In this document: in pieces, positions 26,801 to 62,995 of the stretch
How positions within the stretch are numbered: the first letter of the stretch is position 1
Layout: the number at the start of each line of letters is the position of its first letter
From: Planktothrix rubescens CCAP 1459/22
GTDB lineage: Bacteria; Cyanobacteriota; Cyanobacteriia; Cyanobacteriales; Microcoleaceae
Length of the DNA: 64,000 bases
Direction: 5' to 3'
NCBI GenBank assembly: GCA_904830895.1
Contig: LR882958.1
Span: 2,412,001 to 2,476,000 of the forward strand
Made by a program: the position numbers and the translations under genes
Notes under the pieces: generated by a model
What the model was told of the DNA's origin: nothing
Databases searched by the model: none
Seen by the model: only the letters and a program-made list of their open reading frames with translations

Positions 26801-28171
26801 AAAGCCAGGGTGGGAGCGTGAAAGCCCACTGGCTTCAGCCGTGGGATGAAACGCGACGCAGGCACTTTTAAGTGCCGTCATCTACCAATTAATTTGTACC
26901 CAGTTATTAGATATTTATGTTATCATATTTTCCATGATCAAAGTAACTCGGACGATTAAATTAAAATTCGCAAAACTCAACCTTTGTAAAGCTCAAATGT
27001 TTGAGCAAATGACGGAAGAAAACACGCAGATTGCTAATAAGCTGTTGTCATTGCCAATTAAAGAACGGCGAAAAATGACAACAGCTAAAATCATGTCCGA
27101 GTTAAAATCTGCTCTGGTCAATCAAGTTATTCGACATACCACATCCCCAACGGGTCGTAAAACCAAGCAATATAAAGTTCTTCCTGTAGAAGTTAACAAT
27201 CAAAATTGGAAATTAACTCAAAAAGGGAGTACCTATTCAATTAGCTTCCCGACCCTCAAAGGTGAAAAAAGAATCCCCATTGAAGTAGCATCTCCTCATT
27301 GGCAACCCGTTTTAGATGGATTGTTAGAGGAAACAATTCAAGGGGGTTCTTTTAAATTGATTAAACACAGAAATAAGTGGTATGCCTATCTGTCGATAAC
27401 AGAGGATGTTCCAGAAGTTGAGACAGAGAAAACATTAGGATGTGACCGAGGGCAGAATAATTTAGCGGTAGTTGCACCAAAAGAAGGTTTCGGCAAGTTC
27501 TTTAATGGTCAAAGTGTTAAGCATCGAAGACGTTATTTTCAACAAAGAAGGCAACAACTTCAAGAAGCTAAAAAGTTTCGAGCTTTAAAGAAATGGAACA
27601 AAAAAGAGCAACGATGGATGGAAGCTATTAACCATACAGTCAGTCGCCGAATTGTTCGTTTTGCCCAATACCATAACGCCGATATTGTTATAGAGGATTT
27701 GGAAGGATGTCGTAAAACCATGAAACAGAGCCAGAAATCTCGTTCTGATTCTGGTCAATCTCGACACACTTGGTCTTATTATTCTTTGGAGCAAAAACTT
27801 AATTATAAGTTAGCTCTTAAAGGATTGAAGTTAATCAAAAGACCTGCACCATACACCTCTAAATCTTGCTCAACTTGCGGTGTTATTGGCAAAAGAAATC
27901 GGCACGATTTTAATTGCCCTAATGGTCACTACCACAATTCTGATTTGAATGCTGCACGAAATCTGTCTCAATGGGATGGTTTCGCTTGTGATTTAAACCT
28001 AAAGAGAGATGCTTCTGTAATGGATTCATCCGGTTTAAATTATGGGGTGTTTGGCGCACCCCCGAACTCGGTGAAAAACAATCAAAAAGAGTATATTCAA
28101 CTGTCTTTATTTGATTGGGCTAGATACGAGAATCCCACCCCTTTAGCGTAGCGTAGGGGTGGGAGTGTCAA
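26801..28171 (+). mobile_element. IS200/IS605-type element carrying only tnpB
   Basis: A 1371-base element whose insertion site is defined by the mazE restoration: the left flank ends TTAC (26797-26800, a cleavage-site motif known for IS608-type elements) and the right end is GTCAA. There is no target duplication, as expected for the family. Near the left end lies the hairpin ggcacttttaagtgcc. No tnpA is present, so mobility would need a Y1 transposase in trans. Confidence 0.85.
26934..28151 (+). CDS. tnpB: TnpB, RNA-guided nuclease-like transposon protein
   Basis: A 405-residue OrfB/TnpB protein. RuvC-like acidic residues: Asp in TLGCDRGQNN (about 165), Glu in IVIEDLEG (about 255) and Asp in HNSDLNAARNL (about 345). 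A zinc-ribbon has CSTCG and the variant FNCPNGHYH in which the fourth Cys is lost. TnpB proteins act as RNA-guided nucleases using an omega-RNA from the element's right end. All three acidic residues are present, so it may be active. The stop is 20 bases before the right end, so any omega-RNA would overlap the 3' coding region. Confidence 0.92.
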   Translation: MIKVTRTIKLKFAKLNLCKAQMFEQMTEENTQIANKLLSLPIKERRKMTTAKIMSELKSALVNQVIRHTTSPTGRKTKQYKVLPVEVNNQNWKLTQKGSTYSISFPTLKGEKRIPIEVASPHWQPVLDGLLEETIQGGSFKLIKHRNKWYAYLSITEDVPEVETEKTLGCDRGQNNLAVVAPKEGFGKFFNGQSVKHRRRYFQQRRQQLQEAKKFRALKKWNKKEQRWMEAINHTVSRRIVRFAQYHNADIVIEDLEGCRKTMKQSQKSRSDSGQSRHTWSYYSLEQKLNYKLALKGLKLIKRPAPYTSKSCSTCGVIGKRNRHDFNCPNGHYHNSDLNAARNLSQWDGFACDLNLKRDASVMDSSGLNYGVFGAPPNSVKNNQKEYIQLSLFDWARYENPTPLA

Positions 28172-28555: not shown

Positions 28556-28825
28556 ATGCTGAATATAGAATTAGACAAGGAAACGGAAGCTTATTTAGTA
28601 GAAATTTTGGGAAGGGAGAAAACTACCAGCGATGAATTGATTAAACGCTTAGTTAAAGATCGCTGGCTGAGTTTACAACCGCGTCAAACAATTGTAGAAA
28701 GACTGGGGGGACATCCTGAACATCTGTTAGAAGATGCGCCACCTGATTTATCAGAACGCGCAACTCGGAAAAAAGCGATCCAAGCTTATTTGGAGAAAAG
28801 ACATCCTCAATATCATCCGCAATGA
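28556..28825 (+). CDS. Antitoxin of a VapBC-like pair
   Basis: An 89-residue protein preceded by GGAGG seven bases before ATG. The N-terminus (MLNIELDKETEAYLVEIL) resembles ribbon-helix-helix antitoxins, and the C-terminal part (PPDLSERATRKKAIQAYLEKR) is a typical toxin-wrapping tail. Its stop overlaps the start of the PIN gene by four bases (ATGA). It would autoregulate the pair and inhibit the toxin. Family assignment is by organisation as much as by sequence. Confidence 0.8.
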   Translation: MLNIELDKETEAYLVEILGREKTTSDELIKRLVKDRWLSLQPRQTIVERLGGHPEHLLEDAPPDLSERATRKKAIQAYLEKRHPQYHPQ

Positions 28826-29250
28826 CTTATCATCCCGTAATTATTGTAGATAGTGGAGTTCTTGTAGCTTACTACAGTGTAAAAGATAGCTATCATCAAC
28901 AGGCGCGAGTTTTTTTTGAGAGATGTACAAGTAACCTAGTAACTACCACTGCTTGTGTTACCGAAGTGATGTGGCTTTTAAGTCCTAATTGGCGAATACA
29001 GAATAAGTTTTTACAGGGAGTTGCCAGGGGAGTTTTTGAATCTATCCCATTGCTTCCTGAAGATTTTTCGCGGATTACTGAACTAAATGAACAGTATGCA
29101 GATTTACCGGGAGATTTTGCTGATTTGTCTCTGGTTGCTATTTCCGAACGGCTGAATATTCCGGCTATTGCTACTTTGGATAGTGATTTTGGTGTTTATC
29201 GACGTTATCGAAAACAGGCTTTTGAGCGGGTGTTTAGACCTGAAGACTAA
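28822..29250 (+). CDS. PIN-domain ribonuclease toxin (VapC-like)
   Basis: A 142-residue PIN-domain protein. Conserved acidic residues: Asp in IIVDSGVLVAYYS (about 10), Glu in CVTEVMWLL (about 48), Asp in PGDFADLSLVAISERL (about 97) and Asp in IATLDSDFGVYR (about 118). The set needed for Mg-dependent RNA cleavage is complete. It is translationally coupled to the upstream antitoxin. VapC toxins cut specific tRNAs or rRNA; the target here is unknown. Confidence 0.88.
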   Translation: MTYHPVIIVDSGVLVAYYSVKDSYHQQARVFFERCTSNLVTTTACVTEVMWLLSPNWRIQNKFLQGVARGVFESIPLLPEDFSRITELNEQYADLPGDFADLSLVAISERLNIPAIATLDSDFGVYRRYRKQAFERVFRPED

Positions 29251-29344: not shown

Positions 29345-29406
29345 ATCTCTTAGTCCCTCTCTGCTAAGACTTCCTTTGTGTAGCTGCGGTTTCAACCCCC
29401 GAAGCA
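29345..29406. repeat. Dispersed REP-like repeat, second copy
   Basis: Shares catctcttagtccctctctg, gacttcctttgtgtagctgc and ggtttcaacccccgaagc with the copy at 28345-28463. No coding potential; it sits between the PIN toxin and a CHAT-like gene remnant. Confidence 0.7.
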
Positions 29407-29523
29407 TCAAGGAGATAAATCACAGCCTCTTTTGTGAGTCAGATTAAATGATTTTGAAATTCAGGGAAAGTGATCTGTAGTGAGGATATAATCAAGCATT
29501 ATGAATTTGAAGGTGATTCCCAA

Positions 29524-29760
29524 TGGATGATAGTCGCACTCAAACTTACCGAAATCTGATTCGTATGCTGTTGGCTTATCCCACCCAGGTAAATGAAATT
29601 TTAAACGCCAAGATGATTTGCTGTTAGCAACACGGCACGCCAGCCTAAGTCTTTTCGGGTGGAGAATATTTTGTTCTCTTCTTCGGACAATTATGGTACA
29701 AGCAGGCGTTAGTGAAACAGAAATGCGATCGAAAGCCTAACAGCCTAATAGAGTATTTAC
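29524..29760 (+). pseudogene. Remnant of a TPR-CHAT gene N-terminus
   Basis: ATG 29524 opens MDDSRTQTYRNLIRMLLAYP, which resembles the N-terminus of the second TPR-CHAT protein (AYLNLINQLLTC at 58472). The frame ends after about 34 residues at CC-stop, and the following bases include only a short recognisable piece (VQAGVSETE, about 29698). I read this as the decayed start of a third TPR-CHAT gene just upstream of an intact one. Confidence 0.45.
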
Positions 29761-29915: not shown

Positions 29916-32771
29916 ATGGAAATAGCTATGAACAAGGATGCAGTAAATAAAACTTCACAAACCTATTTAGCTTTTTGGTTAGAAATTTTACAAGCAATTT
30001 TAGAAGGTAATGATACTTCCCAAGGATTTTACCCAATATTAACAGCAAATCAAGACAAACTAAATGAGGAGTTTAGGATCTTATGGCGAGACTGGACAAC
30101 AGCAATTATAGACACAGAAGATTATCCAGCACCTTTAATAATTACTGATATTATTAGCAATTTTAGTAGCTTAATCAAAGAGTTCCCTTTAGGCAACCTA
30201 GCCCAGAACATAGAAATTTCTATTACAGGTCTTGAGATGACGCTAAAAGTTTATAGCCGTGAGGTATTTCCTTTAAACTGGGCAAGCACTCAGAATAATT
30301 TGGGCAATGCTTATAGGGATAGAATTTTGGGCGATGAAACAGAAAATATCAAACAAGCATTAGCATTTTATCAAAATGCCTTAGAAGTTTTCACCCGTGA
30401 AGAGTTTCCTGAAGATTGGGCAAGAACTAAAAATAATCTGGCAATGGCTTACGCTAAAAGAATTAGAGGGAAAAAAGCATATAATCAAGAGTTGGCGCTT
30501 GCCAATTATCAAGATGCCTTAGAAGTTTATAGCCGTGAGGCATTTCCCCGACAATGGGCAATGATTCAAAATAACTTAGTAGATATCTCCCTAAAAATAT
30601 CAGAAAATAATGCGTATAATGAGGAAATAGCAATTAAATATTGTCAATCTGCCTTACAGGTTTTTACCCGTGAAGAGTTTCCCCTAGATTGGGCAAAGAG
30701 CCAACATAACCTAGCAGCCACTTATCTCTTTATAAGTAAGGGTGAAAGACTAGATTACTTAGAACTAGCACTCACTCATAGCCAAGAGGCTTTACAAGTT
30801 CACATCCGTGAAAAAAATCCTTATGAATGGGCATTTACTCAACGTATTTTAGGACTCATTTACAAAGAAAAGGGTGAAATTAAATCGGCTACTGAATGTT
30901 GGCAATTGTCTCTGGAAATTTTCATTCCTGCATTGTTACCAGTAGAATGTTTTGGATCGGGTCTTTTGTTAGGTGACACTGCTTTTATTACTGAAAACTG
31001 GACAGTAGCCATACAAGGTTATGAAAAAGCAATAGCAGCAGTCGAACAAAGTCGGGAATGGGCAACCAACGAAGCAGCCCGTCAAGAAATCCAATTGAAC
31101 GCCATAGATGTCTATATCAATATGGTGCAAGCCTGCATCAATGACGGACAAATTGAAAAAGCCCTCGAAACCGTCGAACGCAGCAAATCCCGCAACTTAG
31201 TCGAACTACTAGCAAATTCCGAACTTGAACCCAAAGGCGCTGATGATTCACTCAAACAGAAATTACGCACCCTAAGAAGCACCATTTCATCAATACGGCA
31301 ATTACTAGCCCAAGCCGATAATAACAGCACATTTAATCGCGACAGTTTCCAGGGATTTCGTAGCAGCGAAACATCCAGCCTCACCCGCGAGTATATCGCC
31401 CAACAGCGCGAACTCCTGCAAGAATATCAGCGCCAACTCGATGCAGTTTTCGCCCAGTGTCAGGAACTAGATCCCGCCTTCACCCTCACTCAAGAAGTCA
31501 AATCTATTACCGTTGCCGAAATCCGCGATTTGATTGACTCCCACACCGCTATTTTAGAGTGGTATATTGGCACAGATAGTTTCCAAATATTCATCGTCAC
31601 CCAGTCAAATTTGGAAGTTGTGCAGTTTGAAAAAGCCGAATTAGAAAAGCTGGAAGCGTGGAATCAACAGTATCTCGAAGCCTTATTTAACGACACCGAA
31701 ACCTGGCAAGATAATCTTTCCGAGTCGCTGAATAGTCTTTCCCAGATATTGCGCTTTGATGAAATTCTCCATCATCCCGCCCTAGCCAATTGTGACTCCC
31801 TGATTCTAGTTCCCCACCGCTATTTGCATCTATTCCCCCTTCATGCCTTATCTGTTAGCCAACAAACTTGGAAGCGATTTAACCCAGAAACTCCCCATCT
31901 GGAACCCCCCGCTAACCCTTGTCTGCTAGATTGCTTCAAAAAAGGCGTGCGATACGCCCCCAGTTGTCAACTCCTGCAACGGGTACAACAGCGAGAACGC
32001 CCACCCGCCGCTACCCGCACCCTGTTCGCCATCCAAAATCCTACCGAAGACCTTGACTACACAGATATAGAAGTAGAAACCATCAAACGTGACTTTTCAC
32101 CCGCCGACATTTTAAGCAAACAACAAGCCACCAAAACCGCCCTCCTTGATAACCTAGAAACCATCGCCCAAGCGCACTACGTCCACTTTTCCTGTCACGG
32201 TTCCTTTGATTTCCAGACACCCCTAATTTCATCCCTAATCTTAGCAGGAGCGATAGAATCAACGGACTCACCCACCCCCACCGGGCAAAAATCTCTCCGA
32301 TTGCGTTCCGGGGGACAAGCCAACCCCGCCAAATGCCTAACTCTGCAAGACATTTTTGCTACACTAAACTTACCTAAATGTCGCCTCGTCACCCTCTCCG
32401 CTTGCGAAACCGGGTTGACAGACACAACCAAGCAGAGTGATGACTGTATTGGCTTGGCTACAGGCTTTTTGTATGCTGGTAGTCAGGGGGTACTCTCCAG
32501 TTTGTGGTCAGTCAATGACTTAGCGACGGCGTTTTTAATGATTAAATTCTATGAAAATCTGGCAACCGATGATATGGCAGTAGCCCTCAATACTGCCCAA
32601 ATTTGGCTGCGGGATGCTACCCAATCTAAATTGCTAGAATGGATTGGTAAATTAAAATTAGATTTAGAGTCAACTCAACATATCAAGGGTTTCCTTGAAA
32701 GTTACGATTCTGACGAAACACCATTTGAAAGCCCGGTTTTCTGGGCTGCATTTTGCGCTATAGGAAAGTAA
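29916..32771 (+). CDS. TPR-CHAT protease (locus 1)
   Basis: A 951-residue protein. Residues about 85-400 hold at least five long TPR-like units of about 45 residues (for example ALEVFTREEFPEDWARTKNNLAMAY). A helical linker (about 400-520) leads to a C-terminal CHAT domain, a caspase-clan fold. The catalytic dyad is visible: His761 in VHFSCHGSF and Cys830 in TLSACETGL. CHAT proteases in TPR fusions cleave partner proteins in defence or death systems (as Csx29 does in type III-E CRISPR). It starts an operon with the genes at 32777 and 33094 (gaps of 5 bases each). The translated segment SLRLRSGGQANPAK near the CHAT core is probably a repeat-derived loop. Confidence 0.9.
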   Translation: MEIAMNKDAVNKTSQTYLAFWLEILQAILEGNDTSQGFYPILTANQDKLNEEFRILWRDWTTAIIDTEDYPAPLIITDIISNFSSLIKEFPLGNLAQNIEISITGLEMTLKVYSREVFPLNWASTQNNLGNAYRDRILGDETENIKQALAFYQNALEVFTREEFPEDWARTKNNLAMAYAKRIRGKKAYNQELALANYQDALEVYSREAFPRQWAMIQNNLVDISLKISENNAYNEEIAIKYCQSALQVFTREEFPLDWAKSQHNLAATYLFISKGERLDYLELALTHSQEALQVHIREKNPYEWAFTQRILGLIYKEKGEIKSATECWQLSLEIFIPALLPVECFGSGLLLGDTAFITENWTVAIQGYEKAIAAVEQSREWATNEAARQEIQLNAIDVYINMVQACINDGQIEKALETVERSKSRNLVELLANSELEPKGADDSLKQKLRTLRSTISSIRQLLAQADNNSTFNRDSFQGFRSSETSSLTREYIAQQRELLQEYQRQLDAVFAQCQELDPAFTLTQEVKSITVAEIRDLIDSHTAILEWYIGTDSFQIFIVTQSNLEVVQFEKAELEKLEAWNQQYLEALFNDTETWQDNLSESLNSLSQILRFDEILHHPALANCDSLILVPHRYLHLFPLHALSVSQQTWKRFNPETPHLEPPANPCLLDCFKKGVRYAPSCQLLQRVQQRERPPAATRTLFAIQNPTEDLDYTDIEVETIKRDFSPADILSKQQATKTALLDNLETIAQAHYVHFSCHGSFDFQTPLISSLILAGAIESTDSPTPTGQKSLRLRSGGQANPAKCLTLQDIFATLNLPKCRLVTLSACETGLTDTTKQSDDCIGLATGFLYAGSQGVLSSLWSVNDLATAFLMIKFYENLATDDMAVALNTAQIWLRDATQSKLLEWIGKLKLDLESTQHIKGFLESYDSDETPFESPVFWAAFCAIGK

Positions 32772-32776
32772 AAATT

Positions 32777-33088
32777 ATGACTACAAATCCTCTCTTATTA
32801 GCTTTCCCAAACTTTGTAAAAATGGAAAACATTGAAACAGACTGTTTAAGAGAATTGGATCGAGCCTTAGAATCCGTCAGCAGCGAACCTTCACAAAATA
32901 TAGAGGAAACTCTGAATGAATGGTTACGCAACCACAAAGATATCAGAGAACAGCTTAGAAAGTTTGCACCAAGTAACAAAGAAGTTACTAAAGTTAAAGC
33001 TCAACCCAAAACAGGTGTCGGTAACGTATTTCAAGAATTAAGCGAAGCAGTGAAACAAAAACTCAAAAAGATCGAAAAGGGGAAATAA
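32777..33088 (+). CDS. Small helical protein linked to the TPR-CHAT protease
   Basis: A 103-residue protein from ATG 32777 (MTTNPLLLAF; AGGAAAG lies about ten bases upstream). A longer frame begins with TTG inside the CHAT gene and is unlikely. It is acidic-to-basic and helical, with ENIETDCLRELDRALESV and NIEETLNEWLRNHKDIREQL. The second block resembles the C-terminal tail of the locus 2 protease (NIIAEKIKNWCETRPKIEQ). It could be an adaptor or the small CATRA-system-associated component; this is inference. Five-base gaps on both sides show tight operon packing. Confidence 0.75.
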   Translation: MTTNPLLLAFPNFVKMENIETDCLRELDRALESVSSEPSQNIEETLNEWLRNHKDIREQLRKFAPSNKEVTKVKAQPKTGVGNVFQELSEAVKQKLKKIEKGK

Positions 33089-33093
33089 CTTTT

Positions 33094-34665
33094 ATGTCTC
33101 CTCCTAAAATCTATGCGCCGAATGTTCATTTGTTTGCCTATCAGTTGCGAAAAGAATCTGACCCTCAAAAAGATAATCTCAAAGAACTATTTAAGAAAGG
33201 CGAAAACATCTTAAAAGAATTCGGGATTAATCAAAAAATTCATATCCAAGACAAACCCGGATATCGAGTTGAACTTTCTGCTCAACAAACCGAAGACGAT
33301 GCCTCCATTTTATTTGAAAAATGGTCAGATTCTCCAATCACAGGCATTGCTTATCCTGTCCGAGTTCACGACACTTTTGCCTTAGCATTAAATGTCCGCC
33401 GTCCCGAAAAAAACGAACAGGGAATTAAAACTGCTGACGTAGATATCGACTTTTTTAAACGCTTGCATCCTAGCGAATGCTGGATGCCAAGCAAAGTTAA
33501 CGCTTCTCTAGGTCAAACATTATTGTTAACTCTTTGGTACACTCCAGAGAAAACTTGGCAATTTTGGAACTCAAGAGAAGACCAAAAAAAGCTGCAATCT
33601 TTGGCGGATAAATGCTTGCGAGCTTTTATTCCTGACAAGTTAGAGACTCCTCCATTTTACCGATCGGGTGAACTATTTGGTAGTCCCATTTTTGAGTATG
33701 GAATTCCCGATGAATTAGAAAATTATTGTCACGTTTTAGTTTGGGTATTCGTCACTCCTGAAACCGACACAAAATTACAAGAAGAATATCCTAATTTAGT
33801 TGATATTTTTTGCTATCGTGCTAAAATTATCCAGGCATATAAATTAAGTCGATCTGTCTATAAAGTCCTCTCGCATAGCTATAAAGAAATAAAAGCAGAA
33901 ATAGCTATTGTTGAAAGTTTACCCGATGATAAAACCTTAGATGCGACTAATTTAGAGGAATTAAAAAAGGCACTTAAGCGCATTCCTAGCCTTAATTTTA
34001 GTTACGTTGAGTTCATCAGAGACTTGGATAACTACCGCCTTCCTCTTAAAATCAATCTTCAAAATTATAAAAGAGAGATAAAGCTGTTACAAAAAAAATA
34101 CCCACAAGAAGATTTAAGATTTCTGGAGAATTTCTCAGACGAAAATGCTCATATTTTTGAAGAGCAAATTCAAGCAGATTTGGACTATTTTGCAAAGGGA
34201 TCGGATTTACTAGAAAAAGCCTTAGATGCTATCCGAGGAAGAGTGGAAATAGAGCAAGCAGAGAGCGATCGCAACCTCCAAAAAACCATCCAATCCGTAG
34301 GCTTTGGCATAGGTGCAGCAGGCGTAGTCGCAACTAGCGCCCCCTATTGGATCGACCAGAATCCAGAGAAAATAAACATTGACAAACCTTTTACCTCTAC
34401 TTCTCTAAATACTTTCACAGCTGTTATCCTTTTTAGCTTCATAGCGGGGTTAGGTGCATGGGGTATCGCTTCTGGGTGGATGTACCGCAAAAGCTTCATA
34501 GCGGGAGTGAAAGGTAGGTTGTCAGGAGGAATTGGTAATAATAAAACTCAGGTTAGCTTACCCAGTTCTCCAGGTCAACCAATTAATACCATTTCCCAGG
34601 AACCGGAAGCGGCGACAAATACGACTGAAACGAAGCGCGAAGATTCTGCACGTCCGCATCAATGA
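33094..34665 (+). CDS. Two-TM partner of the TPR-CHAT protease (locus 1), CATRA-like
   Basis: A 523-residue protein. The N-terminal half (about 1-260) is an alpha/beta domain with blocks YPVRVHDTFAL, ASLGQTLLL, LADKCLRAF, GELFGSPIFEY, CHVLVWVF and FCYRAKII. A coiled-coil region (about 265-395) follows, then two membrane helices (about 402-421 and 445-468) and a polar tail. The same blocks occur in the protein at 61541-62995, also downstream of a TPR-CHAT gene, so the pair is functional. Topology recalls CorA (soluble domain, long helix, two C-terminal helices) but no GMN motif is seen. I suspect a membrane-permeabilising effector controlled by the protease. Confidence 0.8.
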   Translation: MSPPKIYAPNVHLFAYQLRKESDPQKDNLKELFKKGENILKEFGINQKIHIQDKPGYRVELSAQQTEDDASILFEKWSDSPITGIAYPVRVHDTFALALNVRRPEKNEQGIKTADVDIDFFKRLHPSECWMPSKVNASLGQTLLLTLWYTPEKTWQFWNSREDQKKLQSLADKCLRAFIPDKLETPPFYRSGELFGSPIFEYGIPDELENYCHVLVWVFVTPETDTKLQEEYPNLVDIFCYRAKIIQAYKLSRSVYKVLSHSYKEIKAEIAIVESLPDDKTLDATNLEELKKALKRIPSLNFSYVEFIRDLDNYRLPLKINLQNYKREIKLLQKKYPQEDLRFLENFSDENAHIFEEQIQADLDYFAKGSDLLEKALDAIRGRVEIEQAESDRNLQKTIQSVGFGIGAAGVVATSAPYWIDQNPEKINIDKPFTSTSLNTFTAVILFSFIAGLGAWGIASGWMYRKSFIAGVKGRLSGGIGNNKTQVSLPSSPGQPINTISQEPEAATNTTETKREDSARPHQ

Positions 34666-34803: not shown

Positions 34804-36144
34804 TTGACATCCGCCCCGGCGTGAACGCACGGGGATTCCATCTATTTAAGCAGATCAAAAATTGATAGCTGCTCAAATACTGGATGGGTTGACGCTTCGC
34901 GGGCTACAGCTACCGCCAAGGGTAGTCTTACGTCTGCCTCCACGTCCGTTTGAAGTCTCCGAAAGCCCTCCGGCGACTAAAATATTTACTGCGGCATTAA
35001 CATCACGATCGTGAGATGTACCGCAATTTAAACAAGTCCACTCTCTAATATTTAACTCTTTTTTACCACCACGAAAACCACAGCAAGAGCAAGTTTGAGA
35101 AGTAGGAATCCATCTATCGATGACACGAAAATCCCGCCCGTACATAACTGACTTAGCTTCTAACATAGTTCTAAAACTACGCCAACCTAAATCGGAAATT
35201 GCACGGGATAGTTTTCGGTTTTTAATCATCCCTGACACATTTAAATCTTCCAAGACTATTGTTTGATTTTCACGAATAATCTGAGTTGAAAGTTTGTGTA
35301 AAAAATCGTTTCGGGTATCAGAAACTTTAGCGTGAAGTTTAGCTAATTTCTTTCTAGCAACTTCTCTTCTTTTACTCCCTTTCTGTTTCCTTGACAAATT
35401 ACGCTGTAATTTCCTTAAACGCTTTAATTGTTTCTTCAAAGGTTTAGGTGATTTAACTTTTTCACCGTTGCTTAATGTAGCAAAATCAGTGATACCTAAA
35501 TCAATTCCTACTGAATTTTGGTTTTCAGGTAATTGTTGAGGATTAAATTCAACGACAAAGCTGACAAAATACCTATCAGCACTATCTTTGATTAAGGTAG
35601 CACTAGAAGGAACTGCGGGTAATTCCCTACTCCAGATTACTTGAATATCACCTATTTTAGCCAGGTGAATGTAATTAGAGTTAGGATAGAGTTTAAACCC
35701 ATTGTCGGTAAATCTAGCTGATTGCTTAGATTTACGTTTTTTAAACTTAGGGGGTTTAACTTTCTTGCCTTTTCTCTGTCCTTTACAGGATTTAAAAAAG
35801 TTAGAATAAGCCTGCTCCAAATCTCTCAAAGACTGTTGCAAGGGAACCGAGGAAACTTCTGTTAACCATTCTTTTTCCTCGGTTTTCTTGAGTTCTGTAA
35901 GTCTTTTAGAGAGTTCACCACTAGAAGGTTTTTTGTTACCCGCACGGTATTGTTCTTGGCAGTAAGCTAAGGCATCGTTAAAAACCACACGACAACAACC
36001 GAACAATTGAGACATTAGCCTCTTTTGTTGGTCTGTTGGGTAGATTCTATATTGATACCTTAACTTCATTGTTTTTGTTGTTTACGATCACTTCTTTAGT
36101 ATACTCTAAAATAGAATAAAAAGCCGTCGTGGAACGACGGGGTT
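34804..36144 (-). mobile_element. IS200/IS605-type element carrying only tnpB, inside htpX
   Basis: The right end reads GTCAA on the minus strand (complement 34804-34808), the same as in the element at 26801-28171. The left end is placed after TTTAA (complement 36145-36149) because that gives frame restoration of htpX; it could be shifted by three bases. A left-end hairpin ccgtcgttccacgacgg lies at 36124-36140. No tnpA, no target duplication. Confidence 0.8.
34873..36069 (-). CDS. tnpB: TnpB, RNA-guided nuclease-like transposon protein
   Basis: A 398-residue TnpB. RuvC-like acidic residues in VGIDLGITDF (about 190), IVLEDLNVSGM (about 275) and HDRDVNAAVNIL (about 360). The zinc ribbon is complete (CSCCGFRGG and CLNCGTSHD). 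It starts MKLRYQYRIYPTDQQ, typical of the family. It differs clearly from the TnpB at 26934 and has its own element ends, so the two insertions were independent events. Likely intact as a nuclease. Confidence 0.93.
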   Translation of the reverse strand: MKLRYQYRIYPTDQQKRLMSQLFGCCRVVFNDALAYCQEQYRAGNKKPSSGELSKRLTELKKTEEKEWLTEVSSVPLQQSLRDLEQAYSNFFKSCKGQRKGKKVKPPKFKKRKSKQSARFTDNGFKLYPNSNYIHLAKIGDIQVIWSRELPAVPSSATLIKDSADRYFVSFVVEFNPQQLPENQNSVGIDLGITDFATLSNGEKVKSPKPLKKQLKRLRKLQRNLSRKQKGSKRREVARKKLAKLHAKVSDTRNDFLHKLSTQIIRENQTIVLEDLNVSGMIKNRKLSRAISDLGWRSFRTMLEAKSVMYGRDFRVIDRWIPTSQTCSCCGFRGGKKELNIREWTCLNCGTSHDRDVNAAVNILVAGGLSETSNGRGGRRKTTLGGSCSPRSVNPSSI

Positions 36145-57600: not shown

Positions 57601-57832
57601 CGGCGATTGGGAATCCGGCGATTGGGAAATCACGTCTACACAAACGAAGTCCGCCTACGCGGACTAGGAAGGGAGTAGAGAATTTGCAATCGAAGATTCT
57701 TATAACCCGCGCAGGCGGGTTTTGTCTGTGTAGGCGCGATTTCAATCGCCGAGATTAGAGCCGAGATTAGAGGAAATCTGGCGATTGGGAAATCGCGTCT
57801 ACACAAACGAAGTCCGCCTACGCGGACTAGGG
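57601..57832. repeat. REP-like palindrome cluster upstream of oppF and overlapping a Y1 transposase gene
   Basis: Contains three REP-like units: gaagtccgcctacgcggact (57639-57666), an inverted partner aacccgcgcaggcgggtt (57704-57721) leading into gcgatttcaatcgccg, and a further copy (57780-57830). Each consists of a GC-rich hairpin joined to cggcgattgggaaatcgcg-type sequence. Inverted pairing resembles bacterial BIMEs. The last copy encodes the C-terminus of the adjacent transposase. Confidence 0.85.
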
Positions 57833-58248
57833 GTAGTTTTAGAAATTAATTCCCACTCAGAAATCATTGATTGCTGACGGTGGTGAACAGCTTGATTTCT
57901 GATATAATTAGCTACACTGTCGATGGCATCGTGGCTAACGGTAAAAGCCCCGTAGCTGCCTTGCCACTTAAAAAAATCACCCGGTTTAAGTTGGTGAGTT
58001 ACGAAATGAGAGGAACTTCCCTTAATTTGCTTAATTATTTCAGCTACCGCCAAAGTTGTTGGAAAACCTATTAGCAAGTGAACATGGTCTTCTATACCTC
58101 CAACTGCGATTACAGTACATTCTAATTTTTTACATTCTCCAATAATAACGGCATAGATTTCTTGCTGAATATCAGGAGTAATCAAAGGTAATCTATCCCA
58201 GGTTGCCCAGACATAATGGAGATATATTTGCGTAAAATTTTCTCTCAT
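57799..58248 (-). CDS. Single-domain Y1 transposase (RAYT/IS200-like TnpA)
   Basis: A 149-residue HUH nuclease. The metal-binding motif HVHLLI lies at 55-60 and the nucleophilic tyrosine in NYIRNQ at about 115. The sequence (HYVWATWDRLPLI, GGIEDHVHLL, WQGSYGAFTVS) is typical of REP-associated tyrosine transposases and IS200-like TnpA. The last ten residues (TPSPRRRTSFV) are encoded by the REP-like palindrome itself, and the stop is within it. REP-like units flank the gene on both sides, the hallmark of RAYT loci. It could mobilise these repeats and perhaps the tnpB-only elements in trans. Confidence 0.88.
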   Translation of the reverse strand: MRENFTQIYLHYVWATWDRLPLITPDIQQEIYAVIIGECKKLECTVIAVGGIEDHVHLLIGFPTTLAVAEIIKQIKGSSSHFVTHQLKPGDFFKWQGSYGAFTVSHDAIDSVANYIRNQAVHHRQQSMISEWELISKTTPSPRRRTSFV

Positions 58249-58471: not shown

Positions 58472-61255
58472 ATGAAGTCTGAACCCCAACCAGCCTATCT
58501 CAACCTGATAAATCAACTGCTAACCTGTGCCAGCGGCGAAGAACAAGAGATATTGAACACTCACCCCGAATTGCTCGATGATGGCTTGGTGGCGGCTATG
58601 CTAGAAAAGGCAGATAATCTTAGAGAACAAGGCGAACTAAATAATGCTAATCGGTTGAAAGATTTTGCCGGGATACTGGGTAAGGTAGATGGCGACTTCC
58701 TAGCGGGAATTGCGCTGAAAGCGGAAGCAGACAGAGTGTTAGAACAAGGCAATCAGCAATATGCAATCAGTCAATTTAGAGAAGCTTTGCAGTCTTGGGA
58801 ACAGGCATTAACTATCTATCGGGAAATCGAAGATCGCCAAGGAGAAGCTAATTCCCTCGGCAACTTGGGCAATGCTTACCTTTGCCTAGGGCAATTCCAG
58901 AAAGCGATCGCATTTCACCAACAGTCTTTAGAGATTGCACGGGAAATCGGATATCGCCAAGGAGAAGCTGCTTCCCTCGGCAGTTTGGGCAATGCTTACT
59001 ATTCCCTAGGGCAATTCCAGAAAGCGCTCGGATTTTACGAACAGTCTTTAGAGATTGCACGGGAAATCGGATATCGCCAAGGAGAAGCTGCTTGCCTCTG
59101 CGGTTTGGGCGCTGCTTACTATTCCCTAGGGCAATACGAGAGGGCGATCGCATTTCACGAACAGTTATTAGAGATGGCACGGGAAATCGGATATCGCCTA
59201 GGAGAAGCTGCTTCCCTCGGCAATTTGGGCGAGGCCTACTATTCCCTAGGGCAATACCAGCAGGCGACCGAGTGTCACCAACAGTATTTAGAGATTTCAC
59301 GGGAAATTGGATTTCGCCAAGGAGAGTCAATTGCTCTAAATAATTTGGGAAATACTTTACTAAAAACTCACCAACTTGCAGAAGCTGAAACAGCACTTCG
59401 TGACTCAATCAAAATTCATGAAACTCTGCGTTCTGAATTAGTCAATAATGACCATAAAGCCTCAATCTTTGAAATCCAGGTAGAATCTTATCGCCTGCTG
59501 CAACAAGTTCTAGTTGCCCAAACTAGATTTGATCAAGCCTTAGAAATATCTGAAATGTCGCGTACCCGTGCCTTCGTCGAGTTATTGCAGCAAACCTTAT
59601 TAACAACCCCCCCTCAGTCCCCCCCTTATCAATGGGAGGAAGTAGATAAGTCCCCCCTTACCAAGTGGGGGTTATCTGAATCCCTCCCTCTTAAGCCCCC
59701 CATTGCTAAGGGGGGGTTGGGGGGGTTATCAATTCCCAAAATCCAACAAATCGCCCGCGACAGAAACTCCACAATAGTTGAATATTCGATTATCTTTGAT
59801 GAAGACATTTACATCTGGGTAATCCAACCAAACGGCAACATCACCTATCGCGCCGCCAACCTCGAACCCCTCAACCAACAAAATCAAACCCTCAAACAAA
59901 TCATCCTCAAAACCCGCGTCTCCATCGGCAGTAAGGAAACCGACGACGAAGGCAACAAAATTCAACTAGAAAGAGAGTACCAACCAAACCAAACAGGCGG
60001 CTATCCCCTATTGCAACTCCTCCATCAAATTCTAATCGAACCGATCATCGACTTGCTACCCACCGATGCCAATAACCAGATCATCTTTATCCCCCACTAC
60101 GACTTATTTTTAGTTCCTTTTGTCGCTTTGCAAGATAGCAAAAATCGCTACTTAATCGAAGATTATACTATCCTCACCGCCCCATCCATCCAAGTATTAG
60201 AAATCACCCGCGAACATCAAAACCGAGTCGGAGGATTGAGACAAGCCGCCCTAATTGTCGGCGATCCAACCATCGATCCAAAATTCAAAGAAAATCCCTA
60301 CAAACTCAACCAAATGTCTAGGGCAAAAGAAGCCGCCGAAGCGATCGCCGCCATTTTAGGAACCCAAGCAATTAGCGGAGACAATGCCACCAAAGTTGCC
60401 ATTTTAGACAGAATGCTAAACACCCGTATCGTCCATTTATCGGCCCACGGACTCCTCGACGATTTCCAAGGTTTCGGCATTCCCGGCGCGATTATTTTAG
60501 CACCATCAGAAAACACCGATGATGGCTCACTTAACGCAGCAGAAATCCTGCGATTAAAACTCGACTCCGAACTCGTAGTTTTAAGCGCGTGCAGCACCGG
60601 GCATGGTAGAATTACCGGAGATGGAGTTGTCGGATTATCGCGTTGCTTCATTCTCGCGGGAGTCCCCAGTATTATCGTTTCCCTGTGGAATATGGGAGTG
60701 ATATCAGCCAAATTGCTAATGACTCAATTCTACCAAAATTTAGCCCGGGGCGACAATCGAGCAGAGGCTTTGCGGTGTGCTATGCTAACCACAAAAGCTC
60801 GATTTCCGAGTCCCATAGCTTGGGCAGCATTCACCTTAATTGGGGAAACTGAAACTTTACCATTATCAACGGAAAAAATAGATTTAAGGGGGCTAAAAAT
60901 GTCACTTCCTGACAATACCAAACCTGAAGAAATTGTGGCTGGTTTAAATAAATTATTAAAAACTTGTCCACCCTATTTATTTGCTGAACATTTACCAGCG
61001 CTTAATGTTTCTGCGACGGATAATGTCAATATTATAGCTGAAAAAATCAAGAATTGGTGCGAAACCAGACCTAAAATTGAACAGAATTTAGAGAATGAAA
61101 TCGATCAAATGGGTGCGGGTGGTACTGATAGCGATGCACCGGAAGAAATCGTCAGGGAATTTTATGAAACGTTGATTGAAAATCAGATTAGATTAGGTTT
61201 ATCTGTGTCGTCTGTGGCGGAGGTTGAAACGGATACAGACGACACAACCGATTAG
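58472..61255 (+). CDS. TPR-CHAT protease (locus 2), with C-terminal extension
   Basis: A 927-residue protein. The N-terminal 90 residues are helical (AYLNLINQLLTC). Residues about 105-290 hold five 40-residue TPRs whose DNA is nearly identical from unit to unit (YSLGQFQKALGFYEQSLEIA). A linker follows, expanded by an in-frame GC-rich repeat. The CHAT domain (about 520-790) has the dyad His659 in VHLSAHGLL and Cys707 in VLSACSTGH. The 120-residue C-terminal tail (NIIAEKIKNWCETRPKIEQ) resembles the separate small protein of locus 1. It is followed, after a REP-rich gap, by the two-TM partner gene. Probably a conflict-system protease. Confidence 0.9.
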   Translation: MKSEPQPAYLNLINQLLTCASGEEQEILNTHPELLDDGLVAAMLEKADNLREQGELNNANRLKDFAGILGKVDGDFLAGIALKAEADRVLEQGNQQYAISQFREALQSWEQALTIYREIEDRQGEANSLGNLGNAYLCLGQFQKAIAFHQQSLEIAREIGYRQGEAASLGSLGNAYYSLGQFQKALGFYEQSLEIAREIGYRQGEAACLCGLGAAYYSLGQYERAIAFHEQLLEMAREIGYRLGEAASLGNLGEAYYSLGQYQQATECHQQYLEISREIGFRQGESIALNNLGNTLLKTHQLAEAETALRDSIKIHETLRSELVNNDHKASIFEIQVESYRLLQQVLVAQTRFDQALEISEMSRTRAFVELLQQTLLTTPPQSPPYQWEEVDKSPLTKWGLSESLPLKPPIAKGGLGGLSIPKIQQIARDRNSTIVEYSIIFDEDIYIWVIQPNGNITYRAANLEPLNQQNQTLKQIILKTRVSIGSKETDDEGNKIQLEREYQPNQTGGYPLLQLLHQILIEPIIDLLPTDANNQIIFIPHYDLFLVPFVALQDSKNRYLIEDYTILTAPSIQVLEITREHQNRVGGLRQAALIVGDPTIDPKFKENPYKLNQMSRAKEAAEAIAAILGTQAISGDNATKVAILDRMLNTRIVHLSAHGLLDDFQGFGIPGAIILAPSENTDDGSLNAAEILRLKLDSELVVLSACSTGHGRITGDGVVGLSRCFILAGVPSIIVSLWNMGVISAKLLMTQFYQNLARGDNRAEALRCAMLTTKARFPSPIAWAAFTLIGETETLPLSTEKIDLRGLKMSLPDNTKPEEIVAGLNKLLKTCPPYLFAEHLPALNVSATDNVNIIAEKIKNWCETRPKIEQNLENEIDQMGAGGTDSDAPEEIVREFYETLIENQIRLGLSVSSVAEVETDTDDTTD
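58850..59330. repeat. Near-identical 120-base coding repeats (TPR units)
   Basis: Four to five units of 120 bases each, with period-exact blocks such as gggaaatcggatatcgcca and tattccctagggcaat, encode the TPRs of the CHAT protein. High DNA identity indicates recent expansion or gene conversion. The regular period creates long antisense frames, which are not genes. Confidence 0.9.
59602..59729. repeat. GC-rich repeat translated within the TPR-CHAT linker
   Basis: Contains ccccccctcagtcccccc, taagccccccattgctaag and ggggggttgggggggtt. It is translated as a Pro/Gly/Lys-rich linker between the TPR and CHAT domains, so the host tolerates it. Related cores appear in the intein and MITE-like elements. 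Confidence 0.8.
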
Positions 61256-61271
61256 GAAATCCGCCGATTTC

Positions 61272-61500
61272 AACCCGCGTAGGCGGGTTTTGTCTGTGTA
61301 GATGCGATTTCAATCGCCGAGATTAGAGCGATTAGATTAGGAAATCCGGCGATTGGAAATCCGGCGATTAGAAATCCGGCGATTAGAAATCCGGCGATTA
61401 GAAATCCGGCGATTAGAAATCCGGCGATTGGAAATCCGGCGATTGGAAATCCGGCGATTAGGAAATCGCGTCTACAGAAACGAAGTCCGCCTGCGCGGAC
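61272..61500. repeat. REP-like pair with an internal 15-base tandem array
   Basis: REP-like ends (aacccgcgtaggcgggtt at 61272; gtccgcctgcgcggac ending 61500) enclose eight tandem copies of the 15-base unit gaaatccggcgatta or gaaatccggcgattg (61341-61460). The unit is derived from the cggcgatt part of the REP, so the array grew from within it. It separates the locus 2 protease from its partner gene and may carry its promoter. Confidence 0.9.
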
Positions 61501-61540
61501 TAAGATTGAATTAAGATAATGTCTTATATTTTCTTTGATT

Positions 61541-62995
61541 ATGAACGAAGCACAGCAAATTAAAAATCCCAGTATTACCCTCTATCCTTTCCACCTGCGG
61601 GATGATAGGGACGAAAGCAATAAGCAAGTAGCCAAAAATGCTCAAAATTTGTGGGAAAATCTAGCGGATAATGTTGGTAAAGAGTTTGATATTAACGAAC
61701 TAAAATCCCTCAGAGATAAGCTAAATTGCTACAAAAACGGACATTACAAACCAGACGATAAACAGGAAAATCTGAATGACGGAAAATTACTAAAGCCCGA
61801 TGGAAAAACTCTGAAATTTCAGCAAATTACTCAGTCAGATAACCAAAAACTTGATGGTTCTATCTATGCCCTACGAATTCACGACACTTACACCGCAGAC
61901 TTGACATTTAACTATAAAAATACCACAATAAAAGTATCAGAATTAACTCAATTAAATCCCCAAGGTTGCTTGTTACCCAATGCAATTAAACCATCTTTGG
62001 GACAAACCTTATTGTTATACGCCGAACCAGCAGTTTATGATACTTACCGGAAACTGGCTGACGAATGCGTTAAAGCTTTTGTACAAAATAAACCGGAAAA
62101 ATCAGTAGACTTTCGGGCCGAAGGAAAGTTATTTGGTAGTCCGATTTTTGAGTATGACAGCCGAGAAAATGATGCAACTAAGCGGTGTCATATTCTCGTA
62201 TGGCTAAAACAAAATCCCGAAACTTTGAAATCCGTAACGCCGGCTTTTAACATTTACTTGATTAATCTACTTTGTTATCGCGCTAAAATCGTGTTTGTGT
62301 ATCACGAAGCTAGAAAAAGGTATCGCAAAGCACAGCAAATAGTCAGCGAATTAGAAAAAAACCTTCCGAAATTCAGTGAAATAGAAAAGGAACAAGATAG
62401 ACAAATTAAATTGCTGAAATTAAAGGAATTGCTGGCTAAAGTCCGAACTAAAATGTTTGATTTTTCTCAACAAATGCGGTATTTGCAAGAAGATAGAAAT
62501 ACCATTGATACTAATGCTGAAAATTATGGTGAGGCTTTGACAAAAATTAAAAGTTTGTGCATCGACGGCGACAATTTGGAATTTTTGCAGAAGTTTTTAG
62601 ATTTAGCTGAGAATAAATATCAACGGCAAATTGAAATAGATTTCAACTACTTAATTGCCAGTCAAGATTTGTTCCAGCAGTCGATATCTACTGTGCGAGG
62701 CATGGTGCAAATTGAGCAGGTGGAATTAGATACGGAACAGGAACAAAATGAAAAAAACCGTGATCATCAACTTGAGAATATCATCTTTTTTGTCGGAACT
62801 GCGATCGGCGGCGGACAAATATTTTCCGCAGCCTATCCTTTAATTAAGGATACACCAATTCAATGGCAACCCGATTTTTCTCTACCTTTGCATCCCTTTT
62901 TTGCCACACTTATCTGTAGTGTACTGTTCGGTTTAGGATTTGGCTTGCTAACATTGCTGATAGTTTGGGTAGCCCGAAAAATATTTCCCAAGTAA
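61541..62995 (+). CDS. Two-TM partner of the TPR-CHAT protease (locus 2), CATRA-like
   Basis: A 484-residue protein from ATG 61541 (MNEAQQIKN); a TTG two codons earlier is less likely. N-terminal alpha/beta domain with the same blocks as the locus 1 partner: YALRIHDTYTAD, PSLGQTLLL, LADECVKAF, GKLFGSPIFEY, CHILVWLK and LCYRAKI. Coiled coil at about 240-400, then two membrane helices (about 413-432 and 450-480) near the C-terminus. The order of domains and the conserved FGSPIFEY block identify both partners as one family. It sits 285 bases downstream of the TPR-CHAT gene. Confidence 0.8.
   Translation: MNEAQQIKNPSITLYPFHLRDDRDESNKQVAKNAQNLWENLADNVGKEFDINELKSLRDKLNCYKNGHYKPDDKQENLNDGKLLKPDGKTLKFQQITQSDNQKLDGSIYALRIHDTYTADLTFNYKNTTIKVSELTQLNPQGCLLPNAIKPSLGQTLLLYAEPAVYDTYRKLADECVKAFVQNKPEKSVDFRAEGKLFGSPIFEYDSRENDATKRCHILVWLKQNPETLKSVTPAFNIYLINLLCYRAKIVFVYHEARKRYRKAQQIVSELEKNLPKFSEIEKEQDRQIKLLKLKELLAKVRTKMFDFSQQMRYLQEDRNTIDTNAENYGEALTKIKSLCIDGDNLEFLQKFLDLAENKYQRQIEIDFNYLIASQDLFQQSISTVRGMVQIEQVELDTEQEQNEKNRDHQLENIIFFVGTAIGGGQIFSAAYPLIKDTPIQWQPDFSLPLHPFFATLICSVLFGLGFGLLTLLIVWVARKIFPK

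Follow-up and report, generated by a model that had tools for sequence, protein, structure and literature searches.

TPR-CHAT protease genes linked to a membrane-tailed partner in Planktothrix rubescens and related cyanobacteria: a candidate conflict system

We analyzed a window of 64,000 nucleotides from the cyanobacterium Planktothrix rubescens CCAP 1459/22 (contig LR882958.1, positions 2,412,001 to 2,476,000 of the forward strand), in which a first-pass annotation, made from the sequence alone, had noticed two copies of a gene pair that encodes a TPR-CHAT protease and a partner protein with a C-terminal membrane tail. This pair is more widespread and more structured than first noticed. The partner gene regularly follows the protease gene, the N-terminal TPR part of the protease has been replaced between related species, and the partner tail and the accompanying type of protease are exchanged in other loci. 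This context supports the reading that we somewhat favor, a conflict system for cell suicide or non-self recognition in which a swappable sensor would activate the CHAT protease and, through it, a membrane effector.

Locus 1 (29916-34665) contains three plus-strand genes, which encode the TPR-CHAT protease (29916-32771; 951 amino acids), a small helical protein (32777-33088; 103 amino acids from the ATG at 32777), and the partner (33094-34665; 523 amino acids). Gene calls agree with the earlier account of this order and of the 5-base gaps on both sides of the small gene. The His/Cys dyad described for the protease is indeed intact, at His761 and Cys830 within a CHAT domain that covers residues 605-950 (PF12770, E = 4.6e-47). 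The CHAT matches of the two window loci score 161.3 and 203.6 bits, above the PF12770 cut-off of 24 bits.

Locus 2 (58472-62995, plus strand) is a distant paralogue of locus 1. Residues at aligned positions agree at 33% between the CHAT domains and at 28% between the partners, so that the "duplicated" pair is a true second pair but not a recent duplicate. Its protease gene (58472-61255; 927 amino acids; His659/Cys707) contains near-identical repeats in the TPR region (58820-59325; 4.2 copies of 120 bp, 86% matches) and ends in a fused small-protein domain (residues 848-904, 3e-11). The partner (61535-62995) has 486 amino acids from a TTG codon; the 484 residues given previously hold from the ATG at 61541. 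A 15-bp repeat (8.7 copies at 96%, 61335-61467) separates the CHAT-small fusion from the partner gene.

Both loci of the original count are present, and the genome (5.7 Mb, five contigs) holds more. Our partner search found six places, consisting of five full copies and one fragment. Four of the full partners come after a TPR-CHAT gene; the fifth has a small gene in front, and the neighbor from which it diverges is a caspase gene (PF00656, 9.1e-13) with sub-threshold actin-like matches. PF12770 yields 26 match rows in this genome, some within one and the same gene. Within flanks of about 1.5 kb, a partner occurs at only four of these 26 loci, all four being the partner-linked genes, and a small gene at only five, namely the four partner-linked genes and L015.

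To count linkage, we took the full-length partners for which 3 kb or more of upstream sequence was available and used a CHAT profile built from the CHAT domains of the window. Set A comprised the best 80 of 105 relatives from a scan of GTDB contigs, from which 23 partners at contig edges and eight fragments were dropped. Set B comprised 88 stretches picked from the rows of an even sample of the phylum, mostly the stronger ones, leaving out the P. rubescens genome; 15 partners at edges and three fragments were dropped. A same-strand CHAT gene lay within 3 kb upstream of the partner in 48 of 55 cases in Set A and in 70 of 74 in Set B, 62 of the latter also having a recognized small gene; the sets overlap in species, and the counts are not additive. 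The co-occurrence in other genomes that had been proposed as a check is thus kept in both samples. By our own arithmetic (approximately 20 CHAT genes in 5.7 Mb), about 0.5% would be expected by chance. The partners lacking an upstream CHAT gene are those of L062, L078, L088, L092, L093, L097, and L111 in Set A and of L122, L180, L225, and the second copy of L120 in Set B. Among them, L092, L093, and L097 (Microcoleus-type and Oscillatoriales records) have full partners with neither a CHAT nor a recognized small gene nearby; by eye, a secA-like gene of 937 amino acids lies upstream on the opposite strand.

Distances between CHAT domains correlate with those between partners (Spearman 0.53 over 126 pairs; none of 300 permutations was as high), although descent within the same species may raise this value. 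In a FastTree phylogeny of 144 CHAT domains, 21 of them unlinked, the linked/unlinked label switches nine times, whereas none of 200 shuffles needed fewer than 16 switches. The main linked group does not include locus 2 and its relatives, which are placed apart. The catalytic His and Cys are intact in 132 of the 133 partner-linked CHATs with both columns, and also in 36 of 36 unlinked CHATs, so the dyad does not tell the two groups apart.

By record title, the best 80 of 105 relatives are 78 cyanobacteria, one Thiomargarita, and one Thiotrichaceae; the last two may be misbinned. Across the even sample of the phylum, the partner was present in 46 of 386 genomes (P. rubescens included), all within the order of the window; because only four first-look candidates were scored in the listed genomes, copy numbers are lower bounds. 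A plasmid collection contained 13 records with a partner match, the matched gene being annotated as a hypothetical protein in every one. Among the six whose gene neighborhoods we read, three partners have a same-strand CHAT gene upstream.

The region that changes most within the protease is the TPR part. Taking locus 1 as reference, residues 366-951 of the protease are 87.7% identical to the orthologue in Kamptonema sp. UHCC 0994 (L038) and 85.1% identical to that in Argonema antarcticum (L039), while residues 1-365 are merely 38.6% and 38.9% identical. The small proteins (80% and 79%, respectively) and the partners (86.7% and 83.2%) are well conserved. At the DNA level, collinearity with locus 1 covers 30969-34609 in L038 (91%) and 31029-34581 in L039 (89%), and conserved DNA resumes near the start of the protease gene (29396-29609, 87%, and 29510-29611, 96%). 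Two of the three full orthologues have a different sequence in place of the putative TPR sensor part of locus 1 (29916-30968, plus strand); the third, L040, is similar all along (88.5% and 91.3%; partner 79.0%).

Residue identities revealed no such replacement in the locus 2 orthologues L185 and L187 (75.7% and 69.4% over residues 1-325; 82.9% and 83.5% over residues 326-830), whose TPR arrays are longer. More broadly, in 48 orthologue pairs, which are not independent, CHAT was the better conserved part in 46, and in the remaining two the region preceding it did equally well; identity of this preceding region was 50% or lower in nine pairs, drawn from five orthologue groups. One partner-linked protease (L100:4512-8330) has a Clp_N domain (1.3e-25) ahead of its TPRs that its counterpart in L104 lacks at E 1e-5, although the two CHATs are 92% identical and the partners 86%. 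Of the four partner-linked TPR-CHAT genes in P. rubescens, all but that of locus 1 contain near-identical DNA repeats in the TPR region. In fungal incompatibility receptors, the TPR or WD repeat parts have been described as highly variable (PMC10907252).

At the other end of the system, the partner tail is exchanged. Of 89 non-fragment partners in Set B, 84 match the profile as far as its membrane tail, and the other five end earlier. Four of these five, at three loci (L119, both copies of L120, and L123), carry the Death-like domain bDLD1 in place of the tail (25.9-33.4 bits, cut-off 25), followed by Trypsin_2 in L119 and in the first L120 copy. The fifth (L124) is a short open reading frame (ORF) with no recognized neighbors, and the two early-ending partners of Set A are likewise short ORFs without a bDLD1-type extension. 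L123 has a CHAT gene upstream and a bDLD1-caspase gene downstream (PF00656, 1.3e-16). The L120 partners are followed by a collinear run of a bDLD1-iSTAND gene, a MoxR-type AAA_5 gene, and a vWA gene; this run brings together the three gene types of the iSTAND-MoxR-vWA ternary system (PF19995, 1.8e-16; PF07728, 3e-14; PF05762, 4.5e-11), with the bpMoxR model itself below cut-off on the AAA_5 gene. Genes resembling those of L120 are seen by eye in the same order in L119. Ternary conflict systems of this kind and Death-like adaptors have been described (PMC7159879, PMC8195603).

The type of protease is exchanged as well. In four loci, a caspase-type gene is divergent from a small gene and partner. 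L035 matches PF00656, as does L129 (1.8e-13), which also encodes nSTAND1 and trypsin; the downstream TPR protein of L129 has a weak, partial CHAT match (1.1e-5). L122 and L130 both have nSTAND1 and WD40, and their caspase calls rest on a profile derived from L035 (1.6e-45 and 2.5e-45), that of L130 being backed by the annotation of its record. The neighbors, which the first-pass annotation had suggested examining, thus include genes typical of conflict systems (caspase, bDLD1, iSTAND, and vWA).

The blocks noted earlier in the two window partners (HDT, SLGQTLLL, GSPIFEY, and CYRAKI) are common to the partner family. Neither the partners nor the small proteins of the window matched Pfam or NCBIfam above cut-off or PADLOC at E 1, and the further P. 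rubescens copies had no Pfam match above cut-off. A plain transporter or housekeeping family, the identity that had been named as contrary to a conflict role, was not what we found. (On the proteases, PADLOC gave three rows for locus 2, the best a generic TPR model at 2.9e-42, and a poor BovA match for locus 1, 0.017.)

In the predicted structure of the locus 1 partner, an N-terminal alpha+beta domain (approximately residues 1-230) with no clear structural match precedes long helices (232-391) and tail helices at 396-419 (low confidence) and 438-473. The two C-terminal membrane helices of the first-pass annotation are only partly borne out: in both window partners the second alone passes the hydropathy cut-off, the first being glycine-rich and weakly hydrophobic. 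Over 155 distinct full-length partners, hydropathy gives two tail segments in 85 and one in 70. A Foldseek search with the model returned CorA, Mrs2, or CmaX entries in all of rows 1-27 (E 1.7e-4 to 4.7e-3), counting three rows (5jrw), titled merely as a T. maritima mutant, that we take to be CorA. Sequence comparison gave no PF01544 (CorA) row for the five P. rubescens partners, with two matches elsewhere in that genome, and hhalign of the partner against PF01544 returned a probability of 0.6. The GxN motif after the first transmembrane helix is not typical of the family, as G[MVIL]N occurs within the last 30% of just five of 155 partners. The partner is predicted, from the model, to consist of an N-terminal domain on a CorA/Mrs2-like helical stalk with a tail that lacks GMN. 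CyanoTRADDas_TM (PF20712) has no match in the P. rubescens genome or its partners, and the ORFs of 14 PF20712 loci that we examined contain no partner match.

The small protein has a 73-position core with a mean column identity of 24% across 53 rows. Its gene either stands alone, with CHAT on one side and the partner on the other, or forms the 3' end of the CHAT gene, as in window locus 2, L113 (the same place as L171), L125, L185, and L187; a further fusion, in L221, was recognized with a second profile, for which the caspase locus L035 was the seed. In window locus 2, L113, L185, and L187, the interval from CHAT to partner contains no additional ORF that matches the small profile. In L091 the domain ends a 374-amino-acid ORF lying between the two. 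Since the two profiles coincide in 28 ORFs, they probably describe one superfamily.

From these arrangements, we infer the following pathway. The N-terminal TPR array would be the sensor, and binding of a trigger would switch on the CHAT cysteine protease. The small protein may serve as an adaptor that bridges CHAT to the partner, on which CHAT would act, most likely by cleavage, or by inducing assembly. The activated partner, its N-terminal domain presumably cytosolic, could then oligomerize and open or assemble a pore through its two-helix membrane tail, damaging the membrane in defense, while in the rare loci with Death-like tails the recipient of the signal may instead be a protease or ternary conflict system. 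The suggested direction, from CHAT to partner, is based on the position of the variable parts, which are the TPR end of CHAT and the partner tail. One precedent weighs against assuming that the partner is toxic: Csx29 was reported to cut its neighbor Csx30 once, the outcome being relief of a sigma-factor inhibitor, and Csx30 fragments were reported to be non-toxic in E. coli (PMC10028731).

The main rival reverses the order of events. Operon order and linkage are equally compatible with a partner that acts as input, a membrane-anchored sensor or scaffold that responds to envelope damage by switching on a CHAT effector. The membrane component of EACC1, coupled to a caspase and with small residues in its helix, has been suggested to be such a sensor (PMC7159879), and the first tail helix of the partner is glycine-rich. 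We consider this reading a serious but minority possibility, for it is in the protease, in its TPR region, that replacement and repeats are seen, and the partner tail, which bDLD1 alone or bDLD1 followed by trypsin can substitute, occupies the position of an output module.

A second rival, housekeeping or developmental regulation of filaments, also has a precedent: HetF, a cyanobacterial CHAT protein, is described as a divisome component required for heterocyst formation (PMC8406250). The hosts are mostly of filamentous genera, judged from record titles. A housekeeping or developmental role of this kind appears unlikely given the patchy spread within one order, the several divergent copies per genome, the copies on plasmids, and the replacement of the sensor. 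Least likely is a mobile addiction or plasmid-stabilizing module with the partner as a toxin restrained by the small protein: the small gene is immediately upstream of the partner, 12 of the 13 partner-bearing plasmid records are typed as mobilizable or conjugative, and IS200/IS605-type genes adjoin both loci, but a large sensor-protease would be superfluous for addiction, and the small protein is fused to CHAT and never to the partner in the ORFs searched.

Within the conflict-system reading, the pathway may, more speculatively, be modular at both ends, with recombination swapping the TPR sensor on a constant core of protease, adaptor, and transducer, and with an output that is either a CorA-like pore or a Death-like domain, the latter bringing in caspase, trypsin, or the iSTAND complex. 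If so, it would be a prokaryotic counterpart of receptor-caspase-gasdermin and Death-domain signaling in which sensor exchange is visible between sister species. The conflict systems of multicellular bacteria that use caspase-like proteases would gain one family of effectors and one of adaptors, both absent from the libraries searched, and the effector would be an undescribed, protease-gated, CorA-like one that may serve allorecognition in filaments. As membrane tails and Death-like domains are alternative ends of one core, protease triggering of both kinds of output is directly testable.

Among known systems, CATRA (CASPASE and TPR repeat-associated), which the first-pass annotation had named, shares a caspase-type protease and the TPR theme. 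Membership is not supported by the model tested: Pfam scans of P. rubescens proteins (five partners, four TPR-CHATs, and the four small proteins with genes of their own) gave no CATRA-named family, and CATRA-C (PF20270) has no match in that genome, although 14 control genomes gave none either. Type III-E Csx29/Csx30 likewise consists of a TPR-CHAT protease encoded with a larger partner, which it cleaves (PMC10028731). The locus 1 protease matches the NCBIfam Csx29 model NF041237 weakly (4.4e-13; 49 bits, cut-off 300), and the partner here, unlike Csx30, has a membrane tail. No Cas7-11 was named among the scanned proteins, in which no search was aimed at Cas7-11 or CRISPR arrays. CRISPR-CorA, a SAM-AMP-gated immune effector, is reported to join a unique cytosolic domain at the N terminus to a CorA-like membrane part at the C terminus (PMC10600005); it is likened here by arrangement, and it is gated by a second messenger whereas our partner is linked to a protease. 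In the EACC1/EACC2 and MoxR-vWA systems, too, a protease of the caspase superfamily is encoded next to a membrane component and domains are exchangeable, and L120 holds the corresponding iSTAND-MoxR-vWA run. They differ in that the prevailing protease here is TPR-CHAT and that partner and small protein have no Pfam family above cut-off, save the bDLD1 and trypsin tails. For the single-TM component EACC1, Pfam scans of the window proteins up to E = 1 listed no family of that name, the presence of such a model in the library being unconfirmed.

Some neighboring genes deserve mention. In L118 (5446-6588) and L180 (6620-11353), small genes that by eye look like MNT nucleotidyltransferase and HEPN types adjoin the small gene or surround the partner; no partner was found in L118. 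In the window, TnpB-like IS200/IS605-type genes lie on either side of locus 1 (26934-28151, plus strand, and 34873-36069, minus strand; PF07282, 9.9e-17, and PF01385, 7.4e-36), and a PIN-domain protein is encoded upstream of it (28822-29250, plus strand; PF01850, 9.8e-10). Just ahead of locus 2 is a Y1 transposase gene of the IS200/IS605 type (57799-58248, minus strand; PF01797, 9.3e-25).
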